Below the pieces are notes generated by a model that was not told where the DNA came from, searched no databases, and worked only from the letters and a program-made list of their open reading frames with translations. Source: a virus. Taken from it: a stretch of 41,782 nucleotides of DNA. Position 1 is the stretch's first letter, and each line of letters begins with the position of its first letter. Shown in pieces: positions 1,337-41,565 of this stretch. The translations under genes were made by a program, and so were the position numbers. Location of the stretch: the IMG/VR virus record IMGVR_UViG_3300002460_000070, positions 1 to 41,782 of that record. One strand, given 5' to 3'.

Positions 1337-1365
1337 AGTAAGTCTAACCATTAGAGTTGATAGGT
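1337..1365. promoter_or_regulatory. Dispersed palindrome, copy 1
   Basis: Left half AGTAAGTCTAA, 3-nt centre, right half TTAGAGTTGATAGGT. It ends four bases before the start codon of the small-terminase gene, so it occupies the ribosome-binding position. Confidence 0.75.
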
Positions 1366-1369
1366 AATT

Positions 1370-1732
1370 ATGGTAAAACAGGTTACAAATAGACATCGGC
1401 GCATTATGGAGGATTTGGTTTTGGAGGGGATGAGGCCGTGTGAGGTGGCGATTCGCTATGCTATCACTGAGTCAAGGTTATCAATATTGAGGAGAAGCCC
1501 ACTTTGGCAGGCGGAGGAGGCAAAAATGCGGGAGGAGCACCTTGCAGTTCATAAATCAACCCTGCATACCCTAATCCCCGCCGCTCTCTCCACATTAAAG
1601 ACAGCGGTTAATGATGAGGATGTGAGGGTGGGGTTAGCCGCTGCGAAGGATATATTGAATAGAAATGGGCTGTTACATAGGGAGGTAGTTGGTGGAAGCG
1701 GAACGTCAATTAGAATCGTGCTTGATGACTGA
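1370..1732 (+). CDS. terS: Terminase small subunit (probable)
   Basis: First gene of the packaging block, directly before the large terminase. Small terminases bind phage DNA and load it on the large subunit. The 120-residue size, a helix-turn-helix-like N-terminus (about residues 8-36, containing PCEVAIRYAITESRLSILRR), a central charged helical oligomerisation-like segment and a C-terminal tail ending in hydrophobic plus acidic residues (IRIVLDD) all fit the family. It lacks a diagnostic catalytic motif, so the call rests on fold-like features and context. The start sits just after dispersed palindrome copy 1, and the site before it is weak. It overlaps the next small gene by 8 bp. Confidence 0.8.
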   Translation: MVKQVTNRHRRIMEDLVLEGMRPCEVAIRYAITESRLSILRRSPLWQAEEAKMREEHLAVHKSTLHTLIPAALSTLKTAVNDEDVRVGLAAAKDILNRNGLLHREVVGGSGTSIRIVLDD

Positions 1733-1868
1733 TTACCAATATGTGTTGGACAGGGATGTGGATAAGTTCACCAACAATGGGTGGGAGCTTGCAAGGCCTT
1801 ATCCAGTGATGATGCTGGGGGGCTTTACAGGGTATTTAATGAGGAGGGAGAAATTTGGGACTGCTTGA
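1725..1868 (+). CDS. Small conserved-type phage protein (47 aa)
   Basis: Begins MTDYQYVLDRDVDKFTNNGW and ends in REKFGTA. The pattern of a short two-strand protein with NxGWEL followed by GGFTGYLM resembles the small DUF1737-like proteins found between phage genes; that relation is my inference. It overlaps the end of the small terminase (8 bp) and the start of the large terminase (14 bp), which is typical translational coupling. It fills what would otherwise be an unexplained gap between the terminase genes. Confidence 0.7.
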   Translation: MTDYQYVLDRDVDKFTNNGWELARPYPVMMLGGFTGYLMRREKFGTA

Positions 1869-3282
1869 TAGCATCTCATACCCCATTGCAAAAGATGGGT
1901 CAACCATCAAAGCACTCTCTACTGGAGTTGCATTTCACCGAGATGATGGTAGGATGAGGATGGTGGTTGGTCCGGTGGGGAGTGGTAAATCCACCATGAT
2001 GGCGATGGAGATATTTAGGCGGGCATCTCGGCAACTACCACAAAGTGATGGTGTGAGGAGGAGTCGCTGGGCGGTGATTAGAGGCACTTACCCCCAACTT
2101 AAAGATACCACCATTAAAACTTGGTTGAATTTGTTTCCTGAACATAAATACGGCAAATTCTACCACGCCCCACCCTCCAACCACCTAATGAGCTGGGAGG
2201 TGGAGGATAAGCAGGGAGGAGTTACAAAGGTTGAGTGTGAGGTGATGTTTAGAGCACTTGACCGACCAGAGCAGATTAGCAACCTATTATCGCTTGAGTT
2301 AACTGGTGCGTGGGTAAATGAGGTGAGAGATACACCCAAGCCTGTGTTGGATGCACTTGATAGTAGGATTGGGAGATACCCCGCTGTTAAAGAGGGTGGA
2401 TGCACATGGAGAGGTATTATAATGGATACCAACCCGTTTGATATTGACCACTATTTATATGATTTATTTGAAAAGAACCCTCCGCTTGGGTATAGGGTGT
2501 GGAGGCAACCACAGAGAGAAAATGAGCACAATCTGGATGCTAACTATTATGCAAACATGTCGCATGGTAAATCAGAAGAGTGGATTAAGATATATGTGAA
2601 AGGTGAGTATGGCTACATTTGTGAAGGCAAGATAGTTTACCCCGAATTTAATTATAATATGCACATCGCATCTTCCCCCCTATTATACAGTGTTTATTCG
2701 CCCATTTATTGTGGTATAGATTTTGGCTTAACCCCAGCTATTGTGTGGACTCAAATAAACGCAGAGGGGCAATGGCTCATAATTAGAGAACTATTTGCTG
2801 ATGAAGTTGGTAAGATGGGTATTGAGCGATTTGGTGATGAATTTCTTGACCTACAAAAACAGCTATTCCCAAAGCAGCAGGATTTTAGATACTTTGTTGA
2901 CCCCGCAGGGTTCACCAGGTCTCAGACGGATGAGAAGAGTTGTTGTGATATATTGAATAATAAAGGTGTTGTTACATCTCCTGGGCGGCAGGACTTGACA
3001 TCAAGGAGAGAGTCGGTAGCCAAACGATTAACAACACTAATTGGAGGTAAGCCTGCCCTCTTGATTGACCCTTCTTGTAAGCAGTTAATTGCTGGATTTA
3101 TGGGTAAATACTATTACCCCCAAACAAATACGGGGCTTATCATGGAAAGGCCACAGAAAAACATATACAGCCACATTCACGATGCACTGCAATATTGTGG
3201 CACTGGTATATTTGGCAGCTATGAAGGTGCGAGGAAGAAAAAAAGGGTGAAAAAGAAGAGACCTAATTGGATAACTGTATGA
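1855..3282 (+). CDS. terL: Terminase large subunit
   Basis: ATP-driven DNA packaging motor and headful/cos nuclease acting at the portal. Residues 39-47 (GPVGSGKST) are the Walker A loop. The segment ELTGAWVNEVRD (about 150-162) matches the Walker B/coupling region of podoviral terminases. The C-terminal half is an RNase H-like nuclease: GIDFG near residue 287, FVDPAG near 347 and HIHDALQY near 442 carry the expected acidic residues. The 475-residue length is normal. The start is a TTG at 1855 behind GAGGAGGGAG; no in-frame ATG lies nearby. It overlaps the portal gene by four bases (ATGA) if that gene starts at 3279. Confidence 0.97.
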   Translation: MGLLDSISYPIAKDGSTIKALSTGVAFHRDDGRMRMVVGPVGSGKSTMMAMEIFRRASRQLPQSDGVRRSRWAVIRGTYPQLKDTTIKTWLNLFPEHKYGKFYHAPPSNHLMSWEVEDKQGGVTKVECEVMFRALDRPEQISNLLSLELTGAWVNEVRDTPKPVLDALDSRIGRYPAVKEGGCTWRGIIMDTNPFDIDHYLYDLFEKNPPLGYRVWRQPQRENEHNLDANYYANMSHGKSEEWIKIYVKGEYGYICEGKIVYPEFNYNMHIASSPLLYSVYSPIYCGIDFGLTPAIVWTQINAEGQWLIIRELFADEVGKMGIERFGDEFLDLQKQLFPKQQDFRYFVDPAGFTRSQTDEKSCCDILNNKGVVTSPGRQDLTSRRESVAKRLTTLIGGKPALLIDPSCKQLIAGFMGKYYYPQTNTGLIMERPQKNIYSHIHDALQYCGTGIFGSYEGARKKKRVKKKRPNWITV

Positions 3283-5162
3283 CTACACCAAGACGCCGTT
3301 CTGAGGCGGGTCAGGTAGGTAAGCAGGTAGGTGAGGCTGAGAAAAAGATAGATAAGTTAAAATCCATGTTTAAATCCGCAATTAGCCACAAAGCGTGGGC
3401 TAATTGGAGGCGGGAGAAGAAAGAGGATAGGGATTTTTATGTGGGCAATCAATTATCACAGGTGGATAAGGAGGAGTTGGCGGAGCGGGGTCAGCCAGAG
3501 GTTGTTGTGAATAAGATATTTAGTAAGATAAACAATTTATTGGGAGCACAGAGGTATTTGAGAAGTGCGATAGTTGCAAAACCACGAACACCAGCACATG
3601 AGACAACCGCATTTGCAATTACCGATGCATTTAAATATATCCAGTATAGAAATGCATTTGCTTTTATTGAGAGTGATGTATTTGAGGATTGTGTTGTAGC
3701 TGGTCTTGGATGGTTTGAGGCTGGTGTTGAGCAGGGGGATGATAATGAAGCTGATATATTTATAGCAAGTGAGCTACCTGATGATGTTAGGATTGACCCA
3801 TTTTCTCGGAGATATGATTTGAGTGATGCTAAATTTGTAGCAAGAGAGAAGTGGGTTGATTATGATGATGTGTATGAGCTGTTTCCAGAAGCAAAAGAGG
3901 AGGTAAGGAAGCATGTGGTAGATGGTGAGGCTTATTTTGATAGTCTGGATTTGGTGAAGCAGAGTAAGATGGATGATTATGATGGGGATGATGGGCAGCC
4001 CTTTTATGTTGACCCAAACAGGGAGAGGGTTAGGTTGGTGGAGATGTGGTATAGAGAGTGGGCGGAGGTGATGTATAGAGGGGATGAGTATGTGGCAAAT
4101 TTGGATGGGTTTGATAAGCAGAGGAGTGAGGTGTTTGAAAATGCGGAGGGCGTTAGTGAAATAAAGACAGTTGATATGACAGATGATGAGATAATGGCGA
4201 TGAATAATATGGTTAAAAGGAAGATGCGAGTGGTTAGGTTGGCAATATTTACGGGTGATTTGCTGTTAAGTGATGATGTAACTCCCTATAATCACCCACT
4301 CAACATCACAACTATCCCATTCTTCCCTGTTTTTTGCTTTAGAAAGATTGATGGTGAACCTTTTGGTGTGATTAGGCAGATGAAATCGGTCCAGCGGGAA
4401 GTGAATAAGAGGAGGAGTAAAGCACTTCATATACTAAATACAACAAGGGTGATAATGGAAAGGGGTGCGGTTGAGGATTTGGATGAGTTGAGAGAGGAAG
4501 TGGCACGGCCAGATGCTATTATTGAAGTTAGTGCTGGAAAAAAGATGGATATTTCAACCGATATAAACCTCGCCGCTACTCAATTTAATGTTATGCAGCA
4601 AAGTGAAGAGGATTTGCAGGATATAAGCGGGATATTTGATGAAGCGATTGGAAAGGCGACAAATGCAAGAACTGGTATTGCTGTGCAAACAAGGGTGCAG
4701 TCGAGTAACCAAAACAATATTAGGTTGTTTGATAACTTGAGGAGAACAAAATTGCAGCTTGGTAAGTTTGTTCTTGGTTTGATAAAGCAATTTTACACTG
4801 CCGAAAAGATGTTTTATATTACAGATGATGAGGAAGCGGCGAGGAGTGTTATATTAAATCAGGAGTTGGAGGATGGAAGTATTGCTAATAGTGTGAGAGA
4901 GGCGAGAGTTGATATAGTGGTTGAAGAAGCACAACCACTCCCAACTGTTAGTGAAGAGCAATTTGTTGCTTTGAGCGAGATGGTCAAAAGTGGTGCTTTA
5001 CCCCCCCAGGTGTTAATTGAGTCAAGTAATATAAGAGGTAAACAAAAGATATTAGGCATGCTTTCTGCGAGTGCTAATGCAGGTGCTAATGCAGGAGCAA
5101 ATACTGCACCTTCACCAAAGATGCAAATGGTGGGGACAGAAAAAGGAGGAGGAATGGTATGA
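3279..5162 (+). CDS. P22-type portal protein
   Basis: Dodecameric channel at the packaging vertex, the docking site for terminase and later the adaptor. The 627 residues show the P22 portal pattern: an N-terminal RREKKEDRDFYVGNQ stretch, then QREVNKRRSKALHILN in the core, and a C-terminal Ala/Gly/Asn low-complexity tail (SANAGANAGAN). P22 gp1 is somewhat longer. I chose the ATG at 3279 because it overlaps the terminase stop as ATGA. A TTG at 3267, twelve bases upstream with an AGAAGAG site, is a fair alternative. It overlaps the scaffold gene by four bases. Confidence 0.95.
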   Translation: MTTPRRRSEAGQVGKQVGEAEKKIDKLKSMFKSAISHKAWANWRREKKEDRDFYVGNQLSQVDKEELAERGQPEVVVNKIFSKINNLLGAQRYLRSAIVAKPRTPAHETTAFAITDAFKYIQYRNAFAFIESDVFEDCVVAGLGWFEAGVEQGDDNEADIFIASELPDDVRIDPFSRRYDLSDAKFVAREKWVDYDDVYELFPEAKEEVRKHVVDGEAYFDSLDLVKQSKMDDYDGDDGQPFYVDPNRERVRLVEMWYREWAEVMYRGDEYVANLDGFDKQRSEVFENAEGVSEIKTVDMTDDEIMAMNNMVKRKMRVVRLAIFTGDLLLSDDVTPYNHPLNITTIPFFPVFCFRKIDGEPFGVIRQMKSVQREVNKRRSKALHILNTTRVIMERGAVEDLDELREEVARPDAIIEVSAGKKMDISTDINLAATQFNVMQQSEEDLQDISGIFDEAIGKATNARTGIAVQTRVQSSNQNNIRLFDNLRRTKLQLGKFVLGLIKQFYTAEKMFYITDDEEAARSVILNQELEDGSIANSVREARVDIVVEEAQPLPTVSEEQFVALSEMVKSGALPPQVLIESSNIRGKQKILGMLSASANAGANAGANTAPSPKMQMVGTEKGGGMV

Positions 5163-6010
5163 GTGAAGAAATTAAGGATGGTGCTATACCCACCGAGAAG
5201 GTAGTTGAGAGTGAGGATGGTGGACAGCCAGAAAGTGTGGTGGGTGACCTCTTTGATAGAACAAAGGAGGTTGCGATAGTTGAAGTAGTTGAAGAGAAAG
5301 TGAAACCGCCTGTTGATACTCCTAAACCGGATTTGGGTGAAAAGAAAAAGGAGGAGGTAGTAGCAGTTGGGGAAGATAAGAAAGAGTGGGAAAAGAGGTA
5401 TAAAGACCAGCAGGCGTTTCTTCAGGAGTCAAGAATTGAGAATAGGGAGCTGAAGAAGATGTTGGTGGGATTGGGAGCGCAGGTAAAAACTCTCAAGGAT
5501 GTGGCAATTACACATCACAAAGAGTTACACCCAGACGACCAGTTTCCAGAACCAGCGCCTCCTCCAAGTGATGAGCCAGCACCCCAATCAAAGATGCTTT
5601 TAAACAGGGTGAAGGAGAGTGAGGAGATGGTGAAGGAGGTTTATGGTGATTATGAGGCAATAGTGGGTAAGTCGGGGGATGATAATAGCCCCTTTGCTCA
5701 AGCCGTTACTAAAAAGCCACACCTTCTTCAGCAAGTATTCACCGCACCTAATCCTGCACTTGAAGCGTATAACATTGGGAGGGATTATCAAAATAAGGAG
5801 AAGTATGGTCACACCCCTGAAGAGATGAGGACAAAGATTGAGAGGGAGGTTAGAGAGGCGATTGATAAAGAGATGAAGCAAAAAGAAAAGGAGAAAAAAC
5901 CCGCATCTCCATCCGCTCCCACATTAAGGAAAGTGGCAAGTAAGGAAGGTGGGGGGGACCCACCGACGGTTAGGCCAGGCGGTGGATTGCGGCAAATATT
6001 TGGGAGGTAA
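5159..6010 (+). CDS. Putative scaffolding protein
   Basis: 283 residues, highly charged, low in aromatics, lying between portal and capsid genes. Residues about 72-110 form a coiled coil (KEWEKRYKDQQAF...), followed by a Pro-rich linker (about 120-140) and a helical, basic C-terminal part. This order and composition fit phage scaffolds, which assemble inside the procapsid and leave or are degraded. The first third is rich in Glu, Val and Pro and probably disordered. No protease domain is seen. ATGA overlap with the portal gene. Confidence 0.75.
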   Translation: MSEEIKDGAIPTEKVVESEDGGQPESVVGDLFDRTKEVAIVEVVEEKVKPPVDTPKPDLGEKKKEEVVAVGEDKKEWEKRYKDQQAFLQESRIENRELKKMLVGLGAQVKTLKDVAITHHKELHPDDQFPEPAPPPSDEPAPQSKMLLNRVKESEEMVKEVYGDYEAIVGKSGDDNSPFAQAVTKKPHLLQQVFTAPNPALEAYNIGRDYQNKEKYGHTPEEMRTKIEREVREAIDKEMKQKEKEKKPASPSAPTLRKVASKEGGGDPPTVRPGGGLRQIFGR

Positions 6011-6013
6011 ACG

Positions 6014-7051: not shown

Positions 7052-7066
7052 GCGAGGAGGTAGAAA

Positions 7067-7825
7067 ATGAACGCTTTATACACTAACTGGAAGTTTCAGC
7101 TTTTCAACAGTAGGACTGGAAATCAGATTGATGATGATACAGGTAAGTTGCAGGTAATGACTGCAGGCTCACCTGTAGTGCCGACTATTTATAGTGATGA
7201 TAGGGGAACAGTGGGGTCAAGTCCCCTAACATTCACAAATGGGTTGGTGGAGTTTTGGACTGTAAACACAATTACCAGCCTTGACATTAGCATACTGACG
7301 GCCGCTGGTGATGCAATACTACTTGCAGGCACAACCCCCGGATTGACAAGAGTTACGGTGGATGTGAGTAGGAGGGAACAGCTTTTGGTTATCCCCTGGC
7401 TGTTTCTGGCGGGTGGGACGGTGGTGGATACAGGGCTTGATATGCCAGCAAATATGTTGGTGGAGTTTGCTGGGGTGAGAGTTACTGCCATTGATGCAGG
7501 AGAAACGATTGATTTTGGCACTCTCGCAGGTGAGGCTGGGGGAGATGAGAATGGTTTCATCACTTTAGCCAGCATTGCAACACTGGGGATGGTTGAGTTA
7601 GAACCACAGATAACTGGTGGAACTAACATTGACTATGTTGGCACCAACTATGTGGGAGTGCTGTTATGCACAACTATAGCAGGTGCTGATGCAGTTGCGA
7701 CGGTGGGCGGTTATACAAGAAAGAGGTATAGAACAGACGGAACAGCAAAGAGCCTTGTATATACTCCAAGCTCAAGTGATACAGGTAGGGGTTATTTGTA
7801 TTTGGGGTATAAAAAGCTGGTATAA
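7067..7825 (+). CDS. Putative virion protein downstream of capsid (252 aa)
   Basis: I do not recognise it. It is Gly/Thr/Val-rich and beta-strand-like, with few charges, and sits directly after the capsid gene with a strong GAGGAGG site. In many podoviruses this place holds a head-decoration or head-fibre protein, so a capsid-surface role is plausible but inferred. The N-terminal about 100 residues contain a GTVGSSPLTFTNGLVEFW segment like those of phage appendage domains. It is the last gene before dispersed palindrome copy 2. Confidence 0.7.
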   Translation: MNALYTNWKFQLFNSRTGNQIDDDTGKLQVMTAGSPVVPTIYSDDRGTVGSSPLTFTNGLVEFWTVNTITSLDISILTAAGDAILLAGTTPGLTRVTVDVSRREQLLVIPWLFLAGGTVVDTGLDMPANMLVEFAGVRVTAIDAGETIDFGTLAGEAGGDENGFITLASIATLGMVELEPQITGGTNIDYVGTNYVGVLLCTTIAGADAVATVGGYTRKRYRTDGTAKSLVYTPSSSDTGRGYLYLGYKKLV

Positions 7826-7828
7826 CAT

Positions 7829-7858
7829 ACTATTGAGTCTAATCAATAGACTTAATAG
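7829..7858. promoter_or_regulatory. Dispersed palindrome, copy 2
   Basis: Left arm ACTATTGAGTCTA, right arm TAGACTTAATAG, 4-nt centre. Eight bases separate it from the ATG of the adaptor gene; the AGGAG ribosome site overlaps its right edge. Confidence 0.8.
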
Positions 7859-7866
7859 GAGTTGAG

Positions 7867-9343: not shown

Positions 9344-9345
9344 TT

Positions 9346-14309: not shown

Positions 14310-14310
14310 T

Positions 14311-15291: not shown

Positions 15292-15303
15292 TAGGAGGTT
15301 TTT

Positions 15304-16029: not shown

Positions 16030-16047
16030 TCGGATTAGGAGGAGATA

Positions 16048-16863
16048 ATGCCAAAACTAATAAGAAGCAGAGCAGAAATAGAGCAGCAAAAACGAGAGGA
16101 AGATGAAAGAGAGCAGGAAGCTGCTAATCGCCTCAATCCCAGGGGTCGTGCTCCTGGCACTTTTATACCAGGTATTGGAGAGGTGTTTCTTAAGCAAAGT
16201 CCACGAGACTCTACTATTAGTAATTTATATAACGCATTTAGGGAAGATGAAGCAAGAAGGATGAGGTTACCTGACCGCTCATTATCAACTGCTTATCCTC
16301 CATCTCCAACTACACCTCCGCCCATGTTACAAGCTGTGGGTGTTAATAAACCCCTAACTATTCCAGGTGGTGGTGAGGATAGTAGATTAGGGTTGCTGAC
16401 AAAAATAGAAGAGATGAGGAGGATGAAGCAGAGTGATGTGCAGAGGTTGATACAGGGTATATCACAAGAACCGTGGAGTGATGAGGAAAAGCAGTTAACA
16501 TTTATTGATGCAATGAAAATGTTGGAGGGGAGTGATAGATATTTAATTCCAGAGCTTGAAGCATACAAAGCAACACAGGCGGAGAGGGTAGCTGGGATGC
16601 AGGTAGGTGGACAAGAGAGGGTGGCAAAAATAGGCGCACAAGCTAAAGAGGCAAAACCTGAAATTGAGTTGAAGGATAGAATGGCTGCGATACAGAAGCA
16701 TATAGAAATGCTGATGAACTCAGGACTTAGCAAAGACCATCCTGAAGTGCAAAAGTGGATAAAGGAGCTTGATGCCCTGGAAGCACCGTGGAAGTTGGGA
16801 CAAAAACCAAAAAAATCTATGCTTGATAACCGAATAAACAAGTTACTCTCACCTCAAAGGTAG
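16048..16863 (+). CDS. Putative internal virion protein (271 aa)
   Basis: Starts with a charged helix (EIEQQKREEDEREQEAANR), then a Pro-rich linker at about 90-105 and a long helical second half rich in Lys/Glu/Met. Unrecognised; context suggests an ejection-protein partner. Good AGGAGG site. It is the last gene before palindrome copy 3. Confidence 0.6.
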   Translation: MPKLIRSRAEIEQQKREEDEREQEAANRLNPRGRAPGTFIPGIGEVFLKQSPRDSTISNLYNAFREDEARRMRLPDRSLSTAYPPSPTTPPPMLQAVGVNKPLTIPGGGEDSRLGLLTKIEEMRRMKQSDVQRLIQGISQEPWSDEEKQLTFIDAMKMLEGSDRYLIPELEAYKATQAERVAGMQVGGQERVAKIGAQAKEAKPEIELKDRMAAIQKHIEMLMNSGLSKDHPEVQKWIKELDALEAPWKLGQKPKKSMLDNRINKLLSPQR

Positions 16864-16889
16864 TAAGTCTAACAAATAGACTTGATAGT
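16862..16889. promoter_or_regulatory. Dispersed palindrome, copy 3
   Basis: AGTAAGTCTA, 4-nt centre, ATAGACTTGATAGT. It overlaps the previous stop codon and ends seven bases before the ATG at 16897. Copy 6 near the right end has nearly the same sequence in the opposite orientation. Confidence 0.8.
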
Positions 16890-16896
16890 ATATAAT

Positions 16897-27234: not shown

Positions 27235-27260
27235 ACTATTAAGTCTAATTGATAGACTAT
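27235..27260. promoter_or_regulatory. Dispersed palindrome, copy 4
   Basis: ACTATTAAGTCTA, 3-5-nt centre, TAGACTAT. Its last bases include the ATG of the next gene, which has no separate SD site. Confidence 0.75.
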
Positions 27261-27663
27261 GTATAAACTACTACTAATCATCTTGGTATTATTCAGCATA
27301 CCAAACCACAGCATTTCTCTAACCTACAATAGAGATAAGGAAGATGCTGTCAGGGGAGTGTTGGGTAGATATTTTCCAGATAAGGTAACATTCCTGAATC
27401 AGCAAACAATTATTCAATTAAAACTGCATGATGTGGGTGAGTTTTGTGTGAATGAAATGGTTTTCTTTTCTATTTACGGTGACCGTATTAGCGGTGTTGT
27501 TATGCTATTTAATAATAGTGGAAAGATGGTGAGTGAGTATTGTAGTAGGGTGGTGGGTGTTTGGTGGGGGTATGTATTTATACCAAGGAGGTATACAATA
27601 AATGACATAGTTTTGGAGTATAGAAGTAGGTTGGTCATAGTTACAAGTGAGTTTGATATATAA
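27259..27663 (+). CDS. Secreted or membrane-anchored protein (134 aa)
   Basis: Residues 1-19 form a signal peptide (MYKLLLIILVLFSIPNHSIS). The mature part is beta-rich and unrecognised, with two Cys. Lying in the lysis cluster, it could act in the periplasm or cell wall. Translation must rely on the palindrome copy 4 region because no SD site is visible. Confidence 0.6.
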   Translation: MYKLLLIILVLFSIPNHSISLTYNRDKEDAVRGVLGRYFPDKVTFLNQQTIIQLKLHDVGEFCVNEMVFFSIYGDRISGVVMLFNNSGKMVSEYCSRVVGVWWGYVFIPRRYTINDIVLEYRSRLVIVTSEFDI

Positions 27664-29993: not shown

Positions 29994-32239
29994 TTTGCAC
30001 AATCCCTTTCATGCCAACTTTTACCAACTCTAATTTCAAGGGGGATTGTCATCCAATCACCACCCACCAATATGGGTTTTTCAACCTCACTTTTGAATAA
30101 CCTCGCCACCCTATCAACATCACCTTCCCTCACCTGCCACACCAACTCATCATGACATTGTATCAATAACCAATCGCTATCTTGTAGTTGTGGCTGCATA
30201 CGCACTGCCGCCATATTTATATGGTCAGCCGCACATCCCTGTGGTATTGAAGCCCAGGCTTCCCTAAACATATCATCTCCCCACCACCCAAAGAATGTCC
30301 TTCTCCTACCAAATGGGGAAATTAAGGTTCTATTTCTCCCCAGTTGTTGCTTAACCCCTTCTTGGTATGCTGACCTCACATTGGGGAATAGTATGAAGTA
30401 TTGGTCAATTAACCACTGTGCTTCTGTGAGTGGTAAATCATACATAGCGCTTATCTTTTTTGCAGCTATACCATACGGTGCACCATGCGCCATAGCTTTA
30501 GCTCTCTGCCGTTCAAGTTTTTCAACCATACTAACATCTTTCTTAAACACCCACGCTGCCACCTCTTTGTGTATATCACCTCCCTTCTTAAATAGTGCTT
30601 TATAATTATCATCCTGCGCTAACCATGCTACAAAGCGAGCCTCTACCTGACTCTCATCTCCTATAACAAAAACACAACCATCATCTGCTATAAACATATC
30701 CCTCATCTCTTTTGGGATGTTTTGGAGATTACCACCAGTTCCTCTAATGTTGGTCCTGCTTGATAACCGCCCTGTAACCGTTCCACTCAACACCCACTCT
30801 GTTCTAAACCTACCATCACCATCAACTACACTGGGTGATAGATACTTGCTGATTGTATTCTCACACTTCCTAACTGCCATTATTAACTCCAAACAAGGGT
30901 GGGTATATTTGCTGTATAAGTTCTGCAGAGCGTCCTCATCAGCTGTTATTTTACCCTTCTTTCGTTGGATTGGTAGCTTTAATTCATCATATAATAGCTT
31001 AGCCATTTGTTTTGATGACCTAACATTAACCTCATACCCCACTATTTTATTTAATTCGTCTTGCAGTGGCTTCTTTGCTTCCTCCAACTCTCTCTTATAG
31101 TGTGCTTGTCTATCTAAATCAAATCTCACCCCCCTTTGTGTAGCCTTCCACATCACTTCTGCAAAAGGTTGTTGGTATTCATCATGGAATTTTAATAGAT
31201 TGAAGTGTTGTAATTCCTGCTTTAGGTTAATTGCACTTTCAAAAGTAGCAACTACATCTTTTACATTATACTCCTCATGCTCTCTATCACCCTTCCACGC
31301 TGGCATGGTGCTAAATAAGCTACCAATAATTGCTAAACTTTTGGGTAGCTCACAATAACAAAGATGCATTGCTAACATGGTATCGCAGTAGATTGGTTTT
31401 ATTTCTCCACACCAATTTAATAGTTGGGTTTTCTCGTAATTTTGATTTTGCACTATCTTACCAATGTTTGGATGTGTTAGCAATTCCCCCACCCGCAACC
31501 AAATTTCAGCCTCCTGCTCTTCACTCCACACAGGGCGATTTTTAAAAATAGGTATGGTGATGGCAAAATCAACCGCATCACCAAGCCCTATCTCTGTTAT
31601 TATATTGGTGGAGGGTATTGCTTCAATGTCAACACTTAACAATTTTGCACTCTTAAACCGTTCAAGGGTGGTAATTACCTGCTCAAAGGAGGGGTTTAAT
31701 ATATAGGTTCTGTCTATTAAGCTGGTGAGAAGGGGGGTGACGGCCTCTTTCTGTGCTCTTGCTAAATCAGCACTTATCAAAGCACACAACTCAATCTCTC
31801 CCCTTAATGCTGCGGAGGGGTGGATGGTGGGTATTACTTTTAAATTTGGTATTAAGGTGGATGTTAGTATTGAACCCCTCCACCTTTTTATACCACTTAA
31901 ACCTGTCAACGCCATTAGGGGTGTATTGCCAAGCGGTATCACCACATTGGGCCTCACCACCATCAACTCATCTCTTAATTGGGGATAGCACTGGGTTACT
32001 ATATCGGTGATACCGATTTCAGGGAGGCGCTCCATCTTATTATTTGGTGGGCGGTATTTTACCACATTTGTAATGTAGCATTGCGAACGGGCAATTCCCA
32101 CACCGCTGAGTAAGCGGTTAAGTAACTGCCCCGCCTTGCCCACAAATGGAACTCCCTCTATCTCCTCTTCAGCACCCGGTGCTTCCCCAACTATGCAGAT
32201 TTTTGCTGGCTTTGGACCAACACCATTAACTCTCCTCAC
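29981..32239 (-). CDS. Uracil-DNA glycosylase/family A DNA polymerase fusion
   Basis: Replicative polymerase. Residues 1-165 are a family 4/5-like uracil glycosylase: GEAPG (18-22), TNVVKYRPP (57-65) and IHPSA near 139. Residues about 185-350 are a DnaQ-type 3'-5' exonuclease: VDIE (Exo I), QNQNYEKT (Exo II, Glu where Asp is usual) and YNVKDVVAT (Exo III). Residues about 360-752 are PolA: TGRLSS, motif A GDESQVEARF, motif B RQRAKAMAHGAPYG, motif C QCHDE. No 5' nuclease domain. The N-terminal Cys pair of the Fe-S glycosylases is absent. GTG start overlaps the upstream stop (GTGA). Confidence 0.93.
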   Translation of the reverse strand: MRRVNGVGPKPAKICIVGEAPGAEEEIEGVPFVGKAGQLLNRLLSGVGIARSQCYITNVVKYRPPNNKMERLPEIGITDIVTQCYPQLRDELMVVRPNVVIPLGNTPLMALTGLSGIKRWRGSILTSTLIPNLKVIPTIHPSAALRGEIELCALISADLARAQKEAVTPLLTSLIDRTYILNPSFEQVITTLERFKSAKLLSVDIEAIPSTNIITEIGLGDAVDFAITIPIFKNRPVWSEEQEAEIWLRVGELLTHPNIGKIVQNQNYEKTQLLNWCGEIKPIYCDTMLAMHLCYCELPKSLAIIGSLFSTMPAWKGDREHEEYNVKDVVATFESAINLKQELQHFNLLKFHDEYQQPFAEVMWKATQRGVRFDLDRQAHYKRELEEAKKPLQDELNKIVGYEVNVRSSKQMAKLLYDELKLPIQRKKGKITADEDALQNLYSKYTHPCLELIMAVRKCENTISKYLSPSVVDGDGRFRTEWVLSGTVTGRLSSRTNIRGTGGNLQNIPKEMRDMFIADDGCVFVIGDESQVEARFVAWLAQDDNYKALFKKGGDIHKEVAAWVFKKDVSMVEKLERQRAKAMAHGAPYGIAAKKISAMYDLPLTEAQWLIDQYFILFPNVRSAYQEGVKQQLGRNRTLISPFGRRRTFFGWWGDDMFREAWASIPQGCAADHINMAAVRMQPQLQDSDWLLIQCHDELVWQVREGDVDRVARLFKSEVEKPILVGGDWMTIPLEIRVGKSWHERDCAKWGG

Positions 32240-32403
32240 TCTCTCTCACCGACTTTGTCTTGCGGGAGCTTACCTTTTCGTTTTAGAAACTCCCTGATTA
32301 GGGTGCGGATGATATGAGCAAGGTCACCGTGGTGAGTGCATAGTGCTTTTAGTTGTTGGTAATCATGCTCTGGTATTGAGAGGTTTAGAATTCTCTTTGA
32401 CAT
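32236..32403 (-). CDS. Ribbon-helix-helix DNA-binding protein (55 aa)
   Basis: Starts MSKRILNLSIPEHDYQQLKA. The short strand (RILNLSIP) followed by two helices (DYQQLKALCTHH and LAHIIRTLIREFLKRKG) is the CopG/Arc fold, which dimerises and reads DNA with the paired strands. Excellent GAAAGGAGGTG site and 4-bp overlap with the polymerase gene. It is the best regulator candidate in the window; the 10-bp direct repeats at the early promoter are a suitable target, which is inference. Confidence 0.8.
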   Translation of the reverse strand: MSKRILNLSIPEHDYQQLKALCTHHGDLAHIIRTLIREFLKRKGKLPQDKVGERE

Positions 32404-32796
32404 TTAATTTTCACCTCCTTTCATAGGCATTACTTCAATTAAATATCCACTGTCCTTTGCTATCTTATAATCTATAAGCCACTCCCTCTTAAATCTATAT
32501 CCAGCCAACTCTAACTTGTTATCAGTTGTAGCAATGTAGTGATACGGTCGGCAGATATCCTCCTTTACTTTAATAATTTCTCCTGCGTGTGCGTTCATAG
32601 CTGCGGTGAAAGCGGCTCCGTCTGCTGTGGTGAAGTAACTTATAGAACCATCAGTTAAACCCAGTATATGATCAGCACTTCTAATTCTTGCTGTGATTAT
32701 CTTACCATTGCGTGGATACTCTTTATGTATTATGCTAACCACCCACGCTTCGCCTGTTCTTTCGTTAATTAAAATGTCATCATTTGAAATACTCAT
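32404..32796 (-). CDS. Hypothetical protein (130 aa)
   Basis: Mixed alpha/beta protein, unrecognised, no Cys motif other than one Cys. It contains the only GATC that I found in the window (32670-32673). Overlaps the methylase gene by four bases; its stop abuts the RHH start (TAAATG). Confidence 0.65.
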   Translation of the reverse strand: MSISNDDILINERTGEAWVVSIIHKEYPRNGKIITARIRSADHILGLTDGSISYFTTADGAAFTAAMNAHAGEIIKVKEDICRPYHYIATTDNKLELAGYRFKREWLIDYKIAKDSGYLIEVMPMKGGEN

Positions 32797-34043
32797 ACCA
32801 CACCTCCGCTTTCTTTTATTTTTGTTACTGCTAACTCATACCACACTCTCTCTTTATCACCTCCAATCCCCCTTCTTCCACTTTTTATTGCCGCCAATAT
32901 AGCATTACCACTCCCCATCGTCGGGTCAACCACCAACTCACCTTCATGTGTGCTCAGCTCTATCAACTCCTGATAGAGAGAGATGGGCTTTTCGGTGGGG
33001 TGATTTTTTTGTGATGTGTTCACCACAGCGTTGAAGGTAGCAAAGTGGGGTTTTGTGAGCGGGTTGGGCTTAGCCCCTTTCCAACACCAATAAATCGGCT
33101 CATAGTTGATTGCAAAGCGGGAGTAAGGTTCTTTGTTACTGTGTGTTGTTTTAACCCACAATAAAGGTTGTTTTTGGTGGTTCAAATATTTTTGTATCAT
33201 TTTTGAGATGCCCCACTCACTTTCTCGTTCAACATTTAATCCAAAAAACAGGTAGCAATGTGCACCTTCTCTCAACACCCGTGAGGTTTCTTCCAGCAAG
33301 ACCTCCATTAACTTCATAGCAGAGGCGGTTGTGTCGTCAAACATCTGATGCCAGTTTTCTCTGTAGTCGCCATCCGCACTCCTCATCTCTTTATCAATCC
33401 CCAACCCATAGGGTGGGTCAAGTAGCATTAAATCAACACTACCATCATCAAGCCTTTTTAATAGTTGTTCGGCAGGTAGGTGAAATAAAAATTCAACATC
33501 CTGTTCTTCCTGGTCAACCAACAACGCCCTTCTTTTTGCGTCTTTTAATCTCTTTAGTTTGGAAATTGCAGAGTTTCTATCTTCCACCGTCTTTAACTCT
33601 GGAAATTCCTCCATTCCATTCGCCAAGTTTATATCGTGAAATATGGATGTCTTATCTCTATTGGTGTATTCAGCAGTATCGTTTACATGCCACTGCTCGC
33701 CATGCATTTGCTTCTTCAGCTCGGTTATTTGCTTTGTCAATAGTGAAGTTTCCTGCCAAGTTAAATCCTTTCGTCTAATATTCTCCTCCAACTCCACCTC
33801 TTTAGCATGAAGTGGGTCAAGTGTTGTAAATTCGGTGTATGGAATTTCCATCCAGCCAAGTAATGCACAGGCAGTCAATCTCCTTCCACCTGTTCTTAAC
33901 TTAAACTTATCTCCATCTCTTTCCAGCACGATTGGCTGTATCAACCCCAACCGCTTGATAGAAGCGGCGAGCTCATCAACACCACTATAATCGCTTCTTG
34001 CTCTATCTCCCCAGTCAATGTCACTTATCTTTGCTTTTATCAT
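32793..34043 (-). CDS. ParB-domain/DNA methyltransferase fusion
   Basis: Residues 1-95 are a ParB-N domain: GLIQPIVLERDG, then TGGRRLTACALLGW (51-64) and EENIRRKDLTWQE (86-98). Residues 96-170 contain a helix-turn-helix-like part (NDTAEYTNRDKTSIFHDI). Residues 180-416 are an N6/N4 methyltransferase of the beta order: DPPY (209-212) first, HPTEKP near 341 and DPTMGSG (373-379) last. It would methylate adenine or cytosine amino groups; the target is unknown. It may protect phage DNA or mark replication sites. Confidence 0.88.
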   Translation of the reverse strand: MIKAKISDIDWGDRARSDYSGVDELAASIKRLGLIQPIVLERDGDKFKLRTGGRRLTACALLGWMEIPYTEFTTLDPLHAKEVELEENIRRKDLTWQETSLLTKQITELKKQMHGEQWHVNDTAEYTNRDKTSIFHDINLANGMEEFPELKTVEDRNSAISKLKRLKDAKRRALLVDQEEQDVEFLFHLPAEQLLKRLDDGSVDLMLLDPPYGLGIDKEMRSADGDYRENWHQMFDDTTASAMKLMEVLLEETSRVLREGAHCYLFFGLNVERESEWGISKMIQKYLNHQKQPLLWVKTTHSNKEPYSRFAINYEPIYWCWKGAKPNPLTKPHFATFNAVVNTSQKNHPTEKPISLYQELIELSTHEGELVVDPTMGSGNAILAAIKSGRRGIGGDKERVWYELAVTKIKESGGVV

Positions 34044-37428: not shown

Positions 37429-37443
37429 TAAAACCTCCTTTTA

Positions 37444-37932: not shown

Positions 37933-38776
37933 TGTTAGCCTCACTTTCGTAGTTTCTGGAGTCTGGGTAGGGGTTCCATATATCCTTATTATACACCGCT
38001 TCTATAAGTGCCTCCTGCTCACTTGGTGTTTTTGCTCTGCAAAGGTGAATATACTCACAAGAACGCCAGTATGCTCCACAATTATTGCTATTGCGCCCCC
38101 ACTTACCCTTCTTGACACTCTCATTCACCGCATTACACCAACCTATTGTATCCTCCTCCCATTTTACTATCTGCTCAGCTGTTCGGTAGGTGAGGGTGCG
38201 GCTAAATTCTACATCTTCTGGGTCTTTTTTGGTGTGATATACTAAATTGAAGTAAGCACCTATTACATTCTCTTGTGTAAGCTGCTTCACACCCCAGATA
38301 TAGGTATCCAACTGTTGATTGGGGTCAACAATTAAATAGCCTTTGCTTGCACTAAATTTGTGCTCTAACACAACCAAACCATTAAAACCCAGCGTCCAGT
38401 TTACCATACCATCCATCTTCCCGCATATTATATACTCCCCCAACTCTGCACTAAACCCCACCTCCACATGCTTGATGGTAAATGGTTCTTCTTTGTATTT
38501 CTCAAAATACTGTGTGAGTATTATTACTCCCCTCCCCAAAGAACGCTTCTCCTCTTTTCCATTGTGTGGGGTAAACTCGGTGATGAATGTATCAATAGCA
38601 GCTTGCTGACCTTCGCCTGAATACCACCTTGCAAGGGCGGAGTGTAATGCACTCCCCCACTGTTTGGCACTTCCCTCCTCAACCTTTGGTATTAGGTGTA
38701 ATACCATACGGTAGTGGAATTTTTGGGGACACTGCTTATACAGTGATAGCATGGAATTGTCAAAAACTTCTATCAT
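37925..38776 (-). CDS. RecB/Cas4-like PD-(D/E)XK nuclease with Fe-S cysteines
   Basis: Cys16 in LYKQCPQKFHYR and three C-terminal Cys in NNCGAYWRSCEYIHLC form the 4-Cys arrangement of AddB/Cas4 exonucleases. The active-site elements are ICGKMDGMV (GxxDG) near 118 and VVLEHKFSAS (ExK) near 135; LDTYIWG (QxxxY-like) follows near 155. It would resect DNA ends for recombination with the Sak4-like protein. ATG at 38776 with AGGAAGGGAG chosen over an upstream in-frame start. Confidence 0.85.
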   Translation of the reverse strand: MIEVFDNSMLSLYKQCPQKFHYRMVLHLIPKVEEGSAKQWGSALHSALARWYSGEGQQAAIDTFITEFTPHNGKEEKRSLGRGVIILTQYFEKYKEEPFTIKHVEVGFSAELGEYIICGKMDGMVNWTLGFNGLVVLEHKFSASKGYLIVDPNQQLDTYIWGVKQLTQENVIGAYFNLVYHTKKDPEDVEFSRTLTYRTAEQIVKWEEDTIGWCNAVNESVKKGKWGRNSNNCGAYWRSCEYIHLCRAKTPSEQEALIEAVYNKDIWNPYPDSRNYESEANNG

Positions 38777-39000
38777 AAAGCTCCCTTCCTTAATCGGAGG
38801 AGAACAACTTGATGTAAAGCGTCTTCCACAATAATCCAATCCGAGAGGTCTGAGGGTAGGTAATAACCTAACTCTGCAAACTCTCCCATCCCTCTTGGGG
38901 AAAGGTGTGTAGTGAGTTGCTTGGGTGGTATAATATCTTCAACCTTGATTGCGAGAGGGTCATCACTATCACACATAAGGCGAGCTTTTATATAGTTCAT
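38773..39000 (-). CDS. Hypothetical protein (75 aa)
   Basis: Acidic small protein (begins MNYIKARLMCDSDDPLAIKV), unrecognised. Overlaps both neighbours by four bases. Confidence 0.65.
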   Translation of the reverse strand: MNYIKARLMCDSDDPLAIKVEDIIPPKQLTTHLSPRGMGEFAELGYYLPSDLSDWIIVEDALHQVVLLRLRKGAL

Positions 39001-39368
39001 ATTTCCTCCCTTATCAATTTCATGGTTATCTCTTCAACAACCGCTTCGTGCATATTGTTTGCTTTATCATCTACATCTGGTTCTGAAATACTTCCACATG
39101 AATTACTATTAAACCTTATCTCTTTAGTTACATCCGCATTAAAGTATCTTGTGTCTTTTTTCTTTGCATGAAAAGCTTTGGTTTTATAGTATCTATTATA
39201 TCCAATTTGCTCAATATCTCCGTCAGTTATCATATTACCGACAGTTGATACAACTATCTTTACATTCTTGAAAGTAAGCAGTGTGTTTCGTCTAAATCTA
39301 CATTTATCAGCACAAATATAATGCGCTGCCCATCCTCGTTCTACTCTATTTACTTTCTTTTTACTCAT
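38997..39368 (-). CDS. Conserved-type phage protein with RGWAAHYI/CRFRRNTLL (123 aa)
   Basis: Contains GWAAHYICADKCRFRRNTLL, then VKIVVSTVGNMI and IGYNRYYKTKAFHA. This pattern recurs in unassigned phage proteins. Two Cys near the start may bind metal. It is the first gene after palindrome copy 5 in the direction of transcription. Confidence 0.7.
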   Translation of the reverse strand: MSKKKVNRVERGWAAHYICADKCRFRRNTLLTFKNVKIVVSTVGNMITDGDIEQIGYNRYYKTKAFHAKKKDTRYFNADVTKEIRFNSNSCGSISEPDVDDKANNMHEAVVEEITMKLIREEI

Positions 39369-39388
39369 ACTTTGCCCCCCCTTTAACT

Positions 39389-39419
39389 ACTATTAAGTCT
39401 AACTATTAGACTTGATAGT
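39389..39419. promoter_or_regulatory. Dispersed palindrome, copy 5 (best copy)
   Basis: Arms ACTATTAAGTCTAA and TTAGACTTGATAGT with a 3-nt centre; 13 of 14 positions pair. Lies upstream of the 38997-39368 gene, about 20 bases from its start. Flanked by a TATCAATA repeat like those at the early promoter. Confidence 0.85.
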
Positions 39420-39467
39420 TATCAATATAAAGAGCAGTTTAACCACATGCTCAGGTGGCACTCCCAC

Positions 39468-39785
39468 CTACGCTGCTTTCTGTGCAGAAAGTGCGTCTTT
39501 TAACTCCGCCTCTGTCAGCTCCGCAACCAATAGAGCCTTCACTCTATCAATTCCAACGCTGATGCACTTGTTAAATCTCTCCACTTTTTTGGAGATAGCA
39601 CTTCCGCTTACTGGCCGTGCCATGTTGTTTCTGGTATTTGTGGCATACTGCTGATTGAAGAGGGCTACAACCCTCTCCTCACCACCACCAATCTTCACTG
39701 CCTCTGCGAGGTTGTCGGCAAGTTTAATCACCTTTTCCCCCACAACCTTACCTCCTACCTTTGCTACTACTTTGTGGTCATGCAT
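39468..39785 (-). CDS. Hypothetical protein (105 aa)
   Basis: Ala/Val/Lys-rich, basic; begins MHDHKVVAKVGGKVVGEKVI. The middle part has NTRNNMARPVSGSAISKK. Unrecognised; may bind DNA by charge. AGGAGGTG site overlaps the end of the upstream small frame. Confidence 0.65.
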   Translation of the reverse strand: MHDHKVVAKVGGKVVGEKVIKLADNLAEAVKIGGGEERVVALFNQQYATNTRNNMARPVSGSAISKKVERFNKCISVGIDRVKALLVAELTEAELKDALSAQKAA

Positions 39786-39794
39786 AGTTTAGTT

Positions 39795-39905
39795 TCACCT
39801 CCTTTTTTTACTGCATATAAAACACAGCTTTACACCATAACCCGCCTCATAACCCGCCTCACTACGGCGTCTTGGATTAAACACAGTTTTGGTAACATAT
39901 AGCAC
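39795..39905 (-). CDS. Possible small basic protein (36 aa)
   Basis: From a GTG at 39905: MLYVTKTVFNPRRRSEAGYE then AGYGVKLCFICSKKRR. The composition is protein-like and a CxxC pair is present. The start is unclear and the ribosome site poor. A tandem 12-bp repeat (GAGGCGGGTTAT) encodes EAGYEAGY. Confidence 0.4.
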   Translation of the reverse strand: MLYVTKTVFNPRRRSEAGYEAGYGVKLCFICSKKRR

Positions 39906-39966
39906 ACTCCCAGCAGATGAAAAATCCCGCCTTAAAGCTCCAGTATATTACCAACAACAGTTTCAT
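39877..39966 (-). CDS. Possible Cys-rich micro-protein (29 aa)
   Basis: ATGA-coupled to the preceding gene's stop: MKLLLVIYWSFKAGFFICWE, ending CAICYQNCV. Four closely spaced Cys follow an apolar start. It overlaps the previous candidate in another frame, so at most one may be real. Confidence 0.3.
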   Translation of the reverse strand: MKLLLVIYWSFKAGFFICWECAICYQNCV

Positions 39967-40148
39967 AACAGCCCCCTCTCCTTCATCAACACCTCAACTT
40001 CCTCTTTTGTATTGCACTTATCCAACAAAGCGGTGAGAGATGGCTCTCTCTTTGGTCGTTTGGTGGTATGTTCAGAAGCCGCCAGTGAAGCGGCGGCTTG
40101 GTTGCGGTGCTTTATCAATGCTTTTATTGTATCTCTACCAATCATCAT
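39963..40148 (-). CDS. Hypothetical basic protein (61 aa)
   Basis: Begins MMIGRDTIKALIKHRNQAAA; Lys/Arg-rich middle (TTKRPKREPS). Unrecognised. GAGGAG stands close to a double ATG (40148/40145); the second gives better spacing. Confidence 0.6.
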   Translation of the reverse strand: MMIGRDTIKALIKHRNQAAASLAASEHTTKRPKREPSLTALLDKCNTKEEVEVLMKERGLL

Positions 40149-40312
40149 TACTCCTCGTCCACTGTTACACTTATCTGCTTTGGTTTGGTTATAAAGCAGA
40201 ATTTCTGAACATACAGAGTCCCCAACTTAATGGGTTCACCCACACTCTCTACCTCAGTGAACTTTAGAGTTCTCTTTGTTTCTTTCTCAAACTTCATGCT
40301 TACTTTTATCAC
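40148..40312 (-). CDS. Small phage protein, KFEKETKRT/GTLYVQK type (54 aa)
   Basis: Starts MIKVSMKFEKETKRTLKFTE and contains IKLGTLYVQKF. This two-part pattern is familiar from unassigned small phage proteins near replication genes. GTG start at 40312 behind AAAAAAGGAGG. It fills an otherwise empty gap. Confidence 0.75.
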   Translation of the reverse strand: MIKVSMKFEKETKRTLKFTEVESVGEPIKLGTLYVQKFCFITKPKQISVTVDEE

Positions 40313-40327
40313 TGTTTACCTCCTTTT

Positions 40328-40528
40328 TTATTCCTCTATTATAGCGTCGTTATAGCCCTCTTTATAACCTTCGTTATAACCTTCTTTAAAGCACTCCTTA
40401 CAGAATTTTACCACTAAGATGGGTTTAGTGGGGATTTGGGAAGCCTGCACATTGTTGATTTCTACCTGTGTTGGCTCTCTTTCACTAAACTCTAACTCCT
40501 GACCACATGTCTTGCATGTCAGCTTCAT
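40328..40528 (-). CDS. Zinc-finger protein with GY-repeat tail (66 aa)
   Basis: Begins MKLTCKTCGQELEFSERE; a second pair FCKECF closes a CxxC-CxxC site. The tail is KEGYNEGYKEGYNDAIIEE, a (E/K)GYx repeat. ATG at 40528 with AGAGGT chosen over an upstream in-frame start. Confidence 0.7.
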   Translation of the reverse strand: MKLTCKTCGQELEFSEREPTQVEINNVQASQIPTKPILVVKFCKECFKEGYNEGYKEGYNDAIIEE

Positions 40529-40542
40529 ATTTTTACCTCTTT

Positions 40543-40761
40543 TTATAACCACCTTGAAGATGGTGCTTTTCTAAACTCGTTATAAGCCACACGGAGGCTT
40601 GAGATGCGTGGCCTCCTGGGCTTTGGTAACCCCCTTTTCTCTGCCAACAACCGAGCTTCTTTATACCACACAACCAAAACACCAAACACTTCCTTCCATG
40701 ATGGATTTTTTTTACCAATAATCTGGCTTGCATATACTATTTGCTGGTAGGCGGTTTTCAC
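40543..40761 (-). CDS. Hypothetical protein (72 aa)
   Basis: Begins MKTAYQQIVYASQIIGKKNP; helical and basic, C-terminal PRRPRISSLRVAYNEFRKAP. Unrecognised. GTG start with GGAGGTGAAG. I prefer this frame to an alternative overlapping frame in the same place (40533-40733) because of its site and composition. Confidence 0.65.
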   Translation of the reverse strand: MKTAYQQIVYASQIIGKKNPSWKEVFGVLVVWYKEARLLAEKRGLPKPRRPRISSLRVAYNEFRKAPSSRWL

Positions 40762-40949
40762 AATTTCTTCACCTCCGCCTTTGCTTTCTTTAACTTCTCC
40801 TTCGCCTTATCCAACTCCATCGCTGCGTTCACCCACACTTCTCTTATCCTTATCATTTTTTGCTTTGCTTTCTGCCACTCTTGTTGGAGCTTCTTTACAT
40901 CTATCTCTACCTCCGCTTCAGGTTTTGTGCATACAATTTGTCTCTGCAT
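40758..40949 (-). CDS. Coiled-coil protein (63 aa)
   Basis: Almost wholly a long charged helix (VKKLQQEWQKAKQKMIRIRE ... AKEKLKKAKAEVKKL), likely a dimeric coiled coil. Unrecognised. ATG at 40949 behind AGGAGGTG. Confidence 0.65.
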   Translation of the reverse strand: MQRQIVCTKPEAEVEIDVKKLQQEWQKAKQKMIRIREVWVNAAMELDKAKEKLKKAKAEVKKL

Positions 40950-40962
40950 CTCATTGCACCTC

Positions 40963-41262
40963 CTAATATATGTTTAAATACTGCTGTATCTTATCCTCAC
41001 TAACTCCACACTCCCTCATCCTTTTAACAATGCTGGGTTCGGTTGATTTGAGCGGTGGCGTTTTGTTGGATGGAACAGAGGCAAAGCACTCCTCAAGCGA
41101 GAGTGGTGCTGATTTGGGAAGCTTAAATAGCTTTTTGTGTGATTGTAATGGTGGGGATGCAGTAAATGGTAATTTCTTGCCAATGTTGATGATAGAGGAT
41201 GGAGATATTTGTATCCAATCCCCCTCACCATTTTTTATATACCGTGTTAAATTTGGTTGCAT
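40963..41262 (-). CDS. First gene of the early operon, hypothetical (99 aa)
   Basis: Begins MQPNLTRYIKNGEGDWIQIS; basic/Pro/Ser-rich linker in the middle; C-terminal helix RMRECGVSEDKIQQYLNIY. Unrecognised. ATG at 41262 with AGGGAGGTG chosen over GTG at 41271. Being first expressed, it is a candidate for host take-over or regulation, which is inference only. Confidence 0.6.
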   Translation of the reverse strand: MQPNLTRYIKNGEGDWIQISPSSIINIGKKLPFTASPPLQSHKKLFKLPKSAPLSLEECFASVPSNKTPPLKSTEPSIVKRMRECGVSEDKIQQYLNIY

Positions 41263-41317
41263 GGTTATCACCTCCCTTCTGCCACTCTATCATTTCATTT
41301 TGCTTCCTCTCTAATAG

Positions 41318-41349
41318 CTATCAATAGGAAGTCAATGGCCTATTGATAG
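41318..41349. promoter_or_regulatory. Inverted repeat at the start of the early transcript
   Basis: CTATCAATAGG and CCTATTGATAG are perfect 11-bp arms around a 10-nt loop. They lie about 30-60 nt into the early mRNA; suited to an operator or an RNA hairpin. Confidence 0.75.
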
Positions 41350-41373
41350 TTATTGATAGTTATTGATATTTAA
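41344..41373. repeat. 10-bp direct repeats by the early promoter
   Basis: TTGATAGTTA occurs twice in a row and a third decayed copy (TTGATATTTA) follows. The one-helical-turn spacing is typical for cooperative regulators such as RHH proteins. The same TTGATAGT core is in the arms of palindrome copies 3 and 5. Confidence 0.75.
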
Positions 41374-41382
41374 GTATATAAA

Positions 41383-41411
41383 AGAATAGCAAATTATGAA
41401 TTGTTTGTCAA
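41383..41411 (-). promoter_or_regulatory. Early leftward promoter
   Basis: On the minus strand: TTGACA (41411-41406), 17-bp spacer, TATTCT (41388-41383). Predicted start near 41376, right beside the 10-bp repeats. It would drive the whole leftward operon. Confidence 0.75.
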
Positions 41412-41536
41412 GGCTTTTTTTAAAAATAAATGTCAATAAAATTAAGTATTTACAATCTATAGAAGTTTAAATTTATACAGTTTTGATATTGATAATGATT
41501 TTCATTTTCAATACTACAAGCCGCCTAATAGCACCC

Positions 41537-41565
41537 ACTATCATGTCTATTTGTTAGACTTACTA
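41537..41565. promoter_or_regulatory. Dispersed palindrome, copy 6
   Basis: ACTATCATGTCTA, 4-nt centre, TTAGACTTACTA. Its reverse complement closely matches copy 3 (16862-16889). No gene starts beside it, so a DNA-level role is also needed to explain the family. Confidence 0.75.

Follow-up and report, generated by a model that had tools for sequence, protein, structure and literature searches.

The genome of a tailed phage carries six copies of one palindromic DNA site that are probably read by the phage's own ParB-methyltransferase fusion protein. The sites lie in a 41,782-nt stretch of viral DNA (IMG/VR record IMGVR_UViG_3300002460_000070; hereafter the window) in which the late genes (terS, TerL, portal, MCP) form a rightward operon and the early genes (ligase, primase, DNA polymerase, ParB-MTase, Sak4-like ATPase, PD-(D/E)XK nuclease) a leftward one. 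We find that the six sites share a fixed geometry and behave as double-stranded DNA sites, that palindrome families are associated with the fusion gene across phage genomes, that their half-sites covary with the HTH segment of the fusion, and that they are evenly spaced along genomes.

Six palindromic DNA sites in the phage genome

All six sites fit a common 29-bp geometry. Each comprises two 12-bp inverted half-sites TAGACTTRATAG, 17 bp apart, around a variable 5-bp centre. The initial annotation of this DNA had listed six palindrome copies with a centre of 3-5 nt. All six were correctly located, and all take a 5-bp centre once placed in the common register, but the left arms of sites 1 and 3, which carry the outer-arm variant GTAGTAAGTCTA, begin two bases earlier than annotated.

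The sites are all non-coding. Site 1 (1335..1363, + strand) is 6 bp upstream of the terS ATG (1370); a perfect sigma70-type match for the late operon (TTGACA-17-TATAAT, 12/12; 1257..1285, +) lies ~50 bp upstream of this site. Site 2 (7830..7858, +) is within the 41-bp gap between gene 7067-7825 and the adaptor gene 7867-8529, while site 3 (16860..16888, +) overlaps the stop codon of gene 16048-16863 and ends 8 bp before the ATG at 16897. Site 4 (27236..27264, +), with a perfect left and a degenerate right arm, overlaps the ATG at 27259. Site 5 (39390..39418, +) has two perfect half-sites and occupies the gap between the leftward genes 39468-39785 and 38997-39368, ~20 bp from the start of the latter. 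Site 6 (41538..41566, −) nearly repeats site 3 in inverted orientation and lies ~125 bp upstream of the match for the leftward early promoter (TTGACA-17-TATTCT, 10/12, with TG before the -10; 41383..41411, −).

The genome contains exactly six such half-site pairs. A scan for facing TAGACTTRATAG half-sites separated by 0-12 bp, allowing up to 5 mismatches summed over both arms, returned only these six, all with a gap of 5. In 200 dinucleotide shuffles the same scan gave a mean of 0.13 pairs (maximum 2). At no more than 3 mismatches there are five pairs in the genome and 0 in the 200 shuffles. Five of the sites made up the first direct-repeat family reported by an independent repeat finder, which listed the copy at 41538 as an inverted repeat of the copy at 16862 (97% over 30 nt). 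No second family comparable to the six emerged from a de novo search of the window for dispersed palindromes.

The six palindromes are double-stranded DNA sites and not RNA switches. Six of the 12 arm pairs are invariant and 0 have changed on both sides; where TAGACTTACTAC and TAGACTTGATAG variants differ, pairs are broken and compensation is absent. Pairing between the arms (83%) is below the mean for shuffled partners (87%) and not above any shuffle. Because the arms are conserved as sequence, as had been noted from the start, and not as pairing, the sites resemble those of a DNA-binding dimer.

RNA elements, in the form of hairpins that replace the Shine-Dalgarno (SD) site, translational switches or processing sites, are by comparison extremely improbable. 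These readings drew on the position of four sites 0-9 bases ahead of start codons (about 4, 8 and 7 bases and one overlap, counted from the originally annotated ends) and on the SD sites behind them. The distances hold; the SD site is weak at terS, none is present at genes 16897 and 27259, and gene 7867 does have one, GGAG. However, we reject an RNA hairpin on the absent compensatory change and the low pairing, and neither translational switching nor RNA processing is supported. Two sites (39390 and 41538) lie ahead of leftward genes, one of them distant from any start; an Rfam search gave no match; and SD sites behind palindromes are not weaker than controls (4.9 vs 4.3 in 28 genomes). The sites are not terminators either, as originally stated. 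Against the criterion of a G+C-rich stem followed by a T run, all six lack the T run, and terminator scans of positions 1-20000 and 38000-41782 listed none of them.

Several further features lie near the window ends. An independent contig (L106) links the end of the window to its start, and the genome is therefore circular or permuted. This contig joins window position 41766 directly to base 1, so that the last 16 bases (41767-41782) are missing, and its own last 200 bases (9350-9549; join at 1010) do not match the window from 8341 on. Window positions 1-24 are a 24-nt poly-A. These end discrepancies are assembly-end artefacts or real ends. A ~33-nt element AGATTGTAAATACTTGATTTTATTRAC has three copies, at 186-218 (+), 41426-41458 (−) and about 41640-41680 (−), two of which fall within an 83-nt, 82% inverted repeat flanking the window junction. 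A Fur-box-like sequence GATAATGATTTTCATTTTC lies in non-coding DNA at about 41488-41508, upstream of the leftward early promoter, and tandem repeats of CTATCAATA lie just downstream of that promoter at 41325-41366. The latter resemble the palindromes' outer arm (ACTATCAA) and are perhaps extra or half-site operators. Elsewhere, gene 10084-11304 contains three degenerate 56-nt direct repeats at 11039-11226.

The ParB-methyltransferase fusion and palindrome families in other phages

The proposed reader of the six sites is a 416-aa ParB_N-HTH-N6/N4 DNA methyltransferase fusion (32793..34043, −). ParB_N spans about residues 1-113, with GxRR at 51-54 and E..EN..R at 83-90. It is followed by an HTH/DNA-binding domain (about 114-186, with modelled helices at 119-126, 130-145 and 155-178) and a beta-class methyltransferase (about 190-410). 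Pfam ParB_N matches at 29.9 bits (cut-off 26.3), and N6_N4_Mtase (PF01555) at 84.5 bits, above its curated cut-off. The nucleotide motifs (G51 R53 R54, E83 E86 N87 R90) are invariant or near-invariant in 33 sequences and are also kept in our ParB alignment A1. Nucleotide specificity is not predictable from sequence in the ParB-CTPase fold (PMC12704722).

Profile and structure comparisons place the fusion among both of its parent families. A fusion-family profile matched the solved structures of ParB, Spo0J, Noc and KorB (E to 4e-22), with Noc and KorB matched via the DNA-binding domain, in alignments that reach profile positions 190 and 203. The profile also matched CcrM, DpnA and M.BceJIV-type methyltransferases. 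An AlphaFold2 model built from 33 sequences (pLDDT 83) comprises ParB_N, HTH and beta-class methyltransferase, and its structural matches are Noc, ParB and m6A/m4C methyltransferases. By domain, the protein is an N6/N4 beta-class DNA methyltransferase with predicted activity. The record has no AAA_31 or CbiA match indicative of ParA, with control searches positive; a ParABS partition system is rejected, the ParA ATPase being absent from the replicon.

The same motif had no usable match elsewhere. Searches with portal, TerL and MCP recovered only pieces of the same virus (100% identity) and distant MCP relatives. The exact motif had one coding match in IMG/VR (L111), taken as chance, and zero matches in 257 Gb of GTDB; a looser scan of IMG/VR gave 101 single matches, also taken as chance. 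Phages that share the early module do have palindrome families of their own, mostly in intergenic gaps. Desulfofustis phage LS06-2018-MD01 carries nine copies of GCTATGTCCCAAnTTGGGACATAGC, and ctMlz233 several copies of CCGCCGGGTTTACn6GTAAACC. In Vibrio phage VS-ABTNL-3, a cultivable relative, the sites read CAATCG-n6-CGATTG. Capsid-only relatives (L112, L113, L115 and L117) have no palindrome family. Looking for the same arms ahead of equivalent genes in relatives, the check proposed in the initial annotation, was thus the wrong test, since distant relatives keep the system with different arm sequences.

In our survey, palindrome families occurred only in genomes that encode the fusion. The survey covered 57 genomes: the window, 43 IMG/VR genomes found by DNA polymerase and 13 phages from INPHARED. 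ParB alignment A1 proved too diverse for the locus scan, which therefore relied on the polymerase alignment. Polymerase or capsid similarity decided which genomes entered the set, and these genomes are not independent. To count as a family, palindromes had to number 4 or more and to outnumber those in each of six shuffles; ParB was called by HMM. By this fixed criterion, families occur in 24 of 37 fusion-encoding genomes and 0 of 20 fusion-less genomes. After PWM refinement the counts are 28/37 and 0/20 (Fisher P = 1e-8), the former taking in four smaller families (G014, G019, G032 and L124) added by inspection. The palindrome-positive count shifts modestly with the criteria (24, 28, or 30 with G005 and G001). 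Spelling differs from phage to phage, and copy number ranges over 3-15. The largest family belongs to G023 (loci L264-L266), whose 58.5 kb hold 15 copies of a CGTAAAnTTTACG palindrome; one copy lies ~90 bp from the parB-MTase frame at its 5' end. About 7-9 fusion-bearing genomes have no detectable family, which implies that sites there are too degenerate or absent. In the palindrome-positive L121, the fusion match is weak and aberrant, without an alignable HTH.

When all called proteins in the 57 genomes were clustered without supervision, the fusion showed a stronger association with palindromes than any other gene family (P = 9e-7). Fusion presence changes state at least 11 times on the DNA-polymerase tree. 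Palindromes follow the fusion in a mean of 4.4 out of 6 independent pairs, and no pair shows the opposite; with so few pairs, this sign test alone is not significant (median P 0.125).

The next most associated family is a DUF3987-type primase, which may be functionally linked to the palindromes. It is found in all 30 palindrome-positive genomes, and together with a residual polymerase signal (see below) this could point to sites of some other shared system (replication, recombination or packaging) that travels with the fusion. We consider this quite improbable, as 15 of the 27 palindrome-negative genomes have the primase too and the HTH signal holds when polymerase identity is controlled for.

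A second protein of the window was weighed as a reader or possible partner: a 55-aa ribbon-helix-helix (RHH)-like protein (32236..32403, −). TAGA is present in Arc operators, and TAGA occurs likewise in the half-sites of the window. The protein has a weak Arc-like profile match and an RHH-like model, whose top structural matches are Arc, ParG and VapB, none significant. That the sites are operators of this Arc-like protein is nevertheless improbable: the other 56 genomes, 27 of which have palindrome families, hold no convincing relative of it, the best match (E 0.02) being in a palindrome-negative genome. We reject the RHH protein as a general palindrome reader on this comparison. Of the two candidates proposed at the outset, the ParB fusion is the one that the association, together with the covariation and motif transfer described next, favours.

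Half-sites covary with the HTH of the fusion. In pairwise comparisons of 24 genomes, half-site similarity correlates with identity of the HTH segment between ParB_N and the methyltransferase (Mantel r 0.50). Given polymerase identity, the HTH signal persists (partial r 0.30; P = 0.0005, the lowest value that the permutation test can give). Neither ParB_N nor the methyltransferase contributes anything, either given the polymerase (partial r 0.02 and 0.07) or given the HTH (0.03 and 0.04). A residual polymerase signal (partial Mantel r 0.24) indicates that shared ancestry contributes. G006, G010, G015 and G019 have a GTTCA-n5-TGAAC core and belong to a single polymerase clade; L114, G007, G009 and G018 share related cores flanked by outer arms rich in G+C.

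A motif from one phage can reveal sites in another. Fusion-bearing G005 had zero sites de novo, and transfer of the G006 motif uncovered three (25-30 bits; shuffle maximum 14.9), whereas the same motif found no sites in fusion-less G004, G017 and G020. In line with this, the G010 motif found no sites in G027, and the G042 and G032 motifs none in G038. Transfer failed for several more divergent genome pairs: no sites were found with the G042 and G032 motifs on G029, the G015, G010 and G019 motifs on G016, the G033 and G008 motifs on L120, the G013 motif on L116, or the window motif on G001. The G002 motif gave one marginal match on G001, which has a possible three-copy family of its own (ATCAATTTCAAnnnTTGAA).

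Site placement and the proposed role of the fusion

Sites are concentrated outside genes and near gene starts. By crude gene calls, 97 of the families' 185 sites fall in non-coding DNA, compared with an expectation of 13; this share is probably an underestimate because the gene caller over-calls in G+C-rich genomes. Sites within 60 bp upstream of a start make up 38%, compared with 9% of random points. Sites are also more evenly spaced than random points (P = 2e-8; median spacing 5.3 kb), in a test of 19 clade representatives that used internal spacings only, with first and last site fixed, and more evenly than random intergenic gaps. The evenness of the window's own six sites is weak (P 0.07-0.17).

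The comparative evidence fits the initial suggestion of a phage-wide regulator in that the sites look like those of a phage-wide DNA-binding protein. We consider it likely, from the sequence comparisons above, that they are parS/OB-like loading sites of the ParB-MTase at 32793-34043(−). The HTH between ParB_N and methyltransferase would read the half-sites as a dimer, and, as in ParB, Noc and KorB, the ParB_N domains would close around DNA with bound nucleotide. The fusion would then slide off its loading site, so that a few sites ~5 kb apart could spread the methyltransferase genome-wide. We infer physical binding and nucleotide-dependent clamping from these analogues, and give clamp loading and sliding about an even chance.

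The outcome could be spread methylation or KorB-like regulation. The presence of a fused methyltransferase suggests that methylation is spread, for example to counter restriction, and the most likely purpose would be methylation or occupancy of all phage DNA, such as protection from host restriction. That spread methylation or genome coverage is the main role is plausible, although somewhat short of even. A second, non-exclusive role could be to influence transcription, locally or at long range, from module-leading sites. We tentatively propose, at a further remove, a widespread form of phage self-marking: the clamp-methyltransferase would load at phage-specific, evenly spaced palindromes and slide, directing methylation or a protective coating to site-bearing DNA.

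Transcription control is a serious alternative or second role, even if unlikely to be the main one. The sites might be operators of a KorB/VirB-like or classical regulator (the ParB-MTase or another protein) at early and late promoters, with methylation a separate activity of the protein. The late and early operons have their best sigma70-type matches close to sites 1 and 6, respectively, and promoter-like scores are higher in site-bearing upstream gaps than in other gaps (7.9 vs 6.8, P 9e-8, 28 genomes). Furthermore, KorB on plasmid RK2 acts at 12 sites, proximal or distal, and slides up to 1.5 kb (PMC11790492). However, the distance from site to -10 box is not fixed, a strong promoter match within 200 bp is lacking at most sites, and a site lies close to the 5' end of the parB gene in just 4 of 28 genomes. 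Even spacing at a few kb and the presence of mid-operon sites fit whole-genome loading points better than promoter operators, and on balance we regard the operator reading as possible but doubtful.

Relation to known systems and implications

The nearest working analogue is KorB with its dispersed OB sites. As proposed for the phage fusion, KorB is a ParB-family CTPase clamp, and its HTH reads several dispersed short palindromes on RK2 (PMC11790492). It differs in that KorB works without a methyltransferase and with the partner KorA, whereas the phage fusion carries a methyltransferase; OB sites also stand at defined distances from promoters (PMC11790492), while phage sites vary in sequence between phages. 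The ParB-parS and Noc-NBS systems share with the phage fusion a ParB_N with GxRR and ENxxR, an HTH, and a palindromic site, a candidate one in the phage. Unlike these systems, the phage protein ends in a DNA methyltransferase and not a dimerisation domain, the window lacks ParA, and the phage sites are strongly diverged.

Dispersed repeats ahead of genes are known from other phages. In cluster K mycobacteriophages, SAS/ESAS repeats lie directly before starts and include imperfect 17-bp inverted repeats with a consensus that varies by subcluster, whose reader was left open (PMC3203893). SAS itself is an asymmetric 13-mer (PMC3203893). The window lacks it: the 13-bp SAS GGGATAGGAGCCC had one 2-mismatch match (0.70 expected).

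The fusion architecture is already known in phages; its cognate site families are apparently new. Phage ParB-CTPase-fold N6_N4 methyltransferase fusions are phage-enriched and of unknown function, with an anti-defence role proposed (PMC12704722), and PMC5512222 cites a ParB-methylase, Bce_0392, with nicking activity. Both the surveyed phage fusions and Bce_0392 have the same domain pair as the window protein. The text of PMC12704722 does not contain the word palindrome, and we found no mention of cognate sites or dispersed site families there or in PMC5512222. We found no report of cognate sites of phage fusions in a literature search that reached few subscription journals and no preprints.

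ParB-methyltransferase fusions are common in phages and previously had no assigned DNA target or role. About 30 phage genomes now each gain a concrete, testable protein-site pair, and their diverged HTH-site pairs are material for deriving a recognition code. The finding would extend the clamp principle of ParB, Noc and KorB to phages and suggests how a methyltransferase could target one replicon, and not a short motif everywhere. If self-marking is true, sites and HTH would co-evolve to give each phage its own address code.
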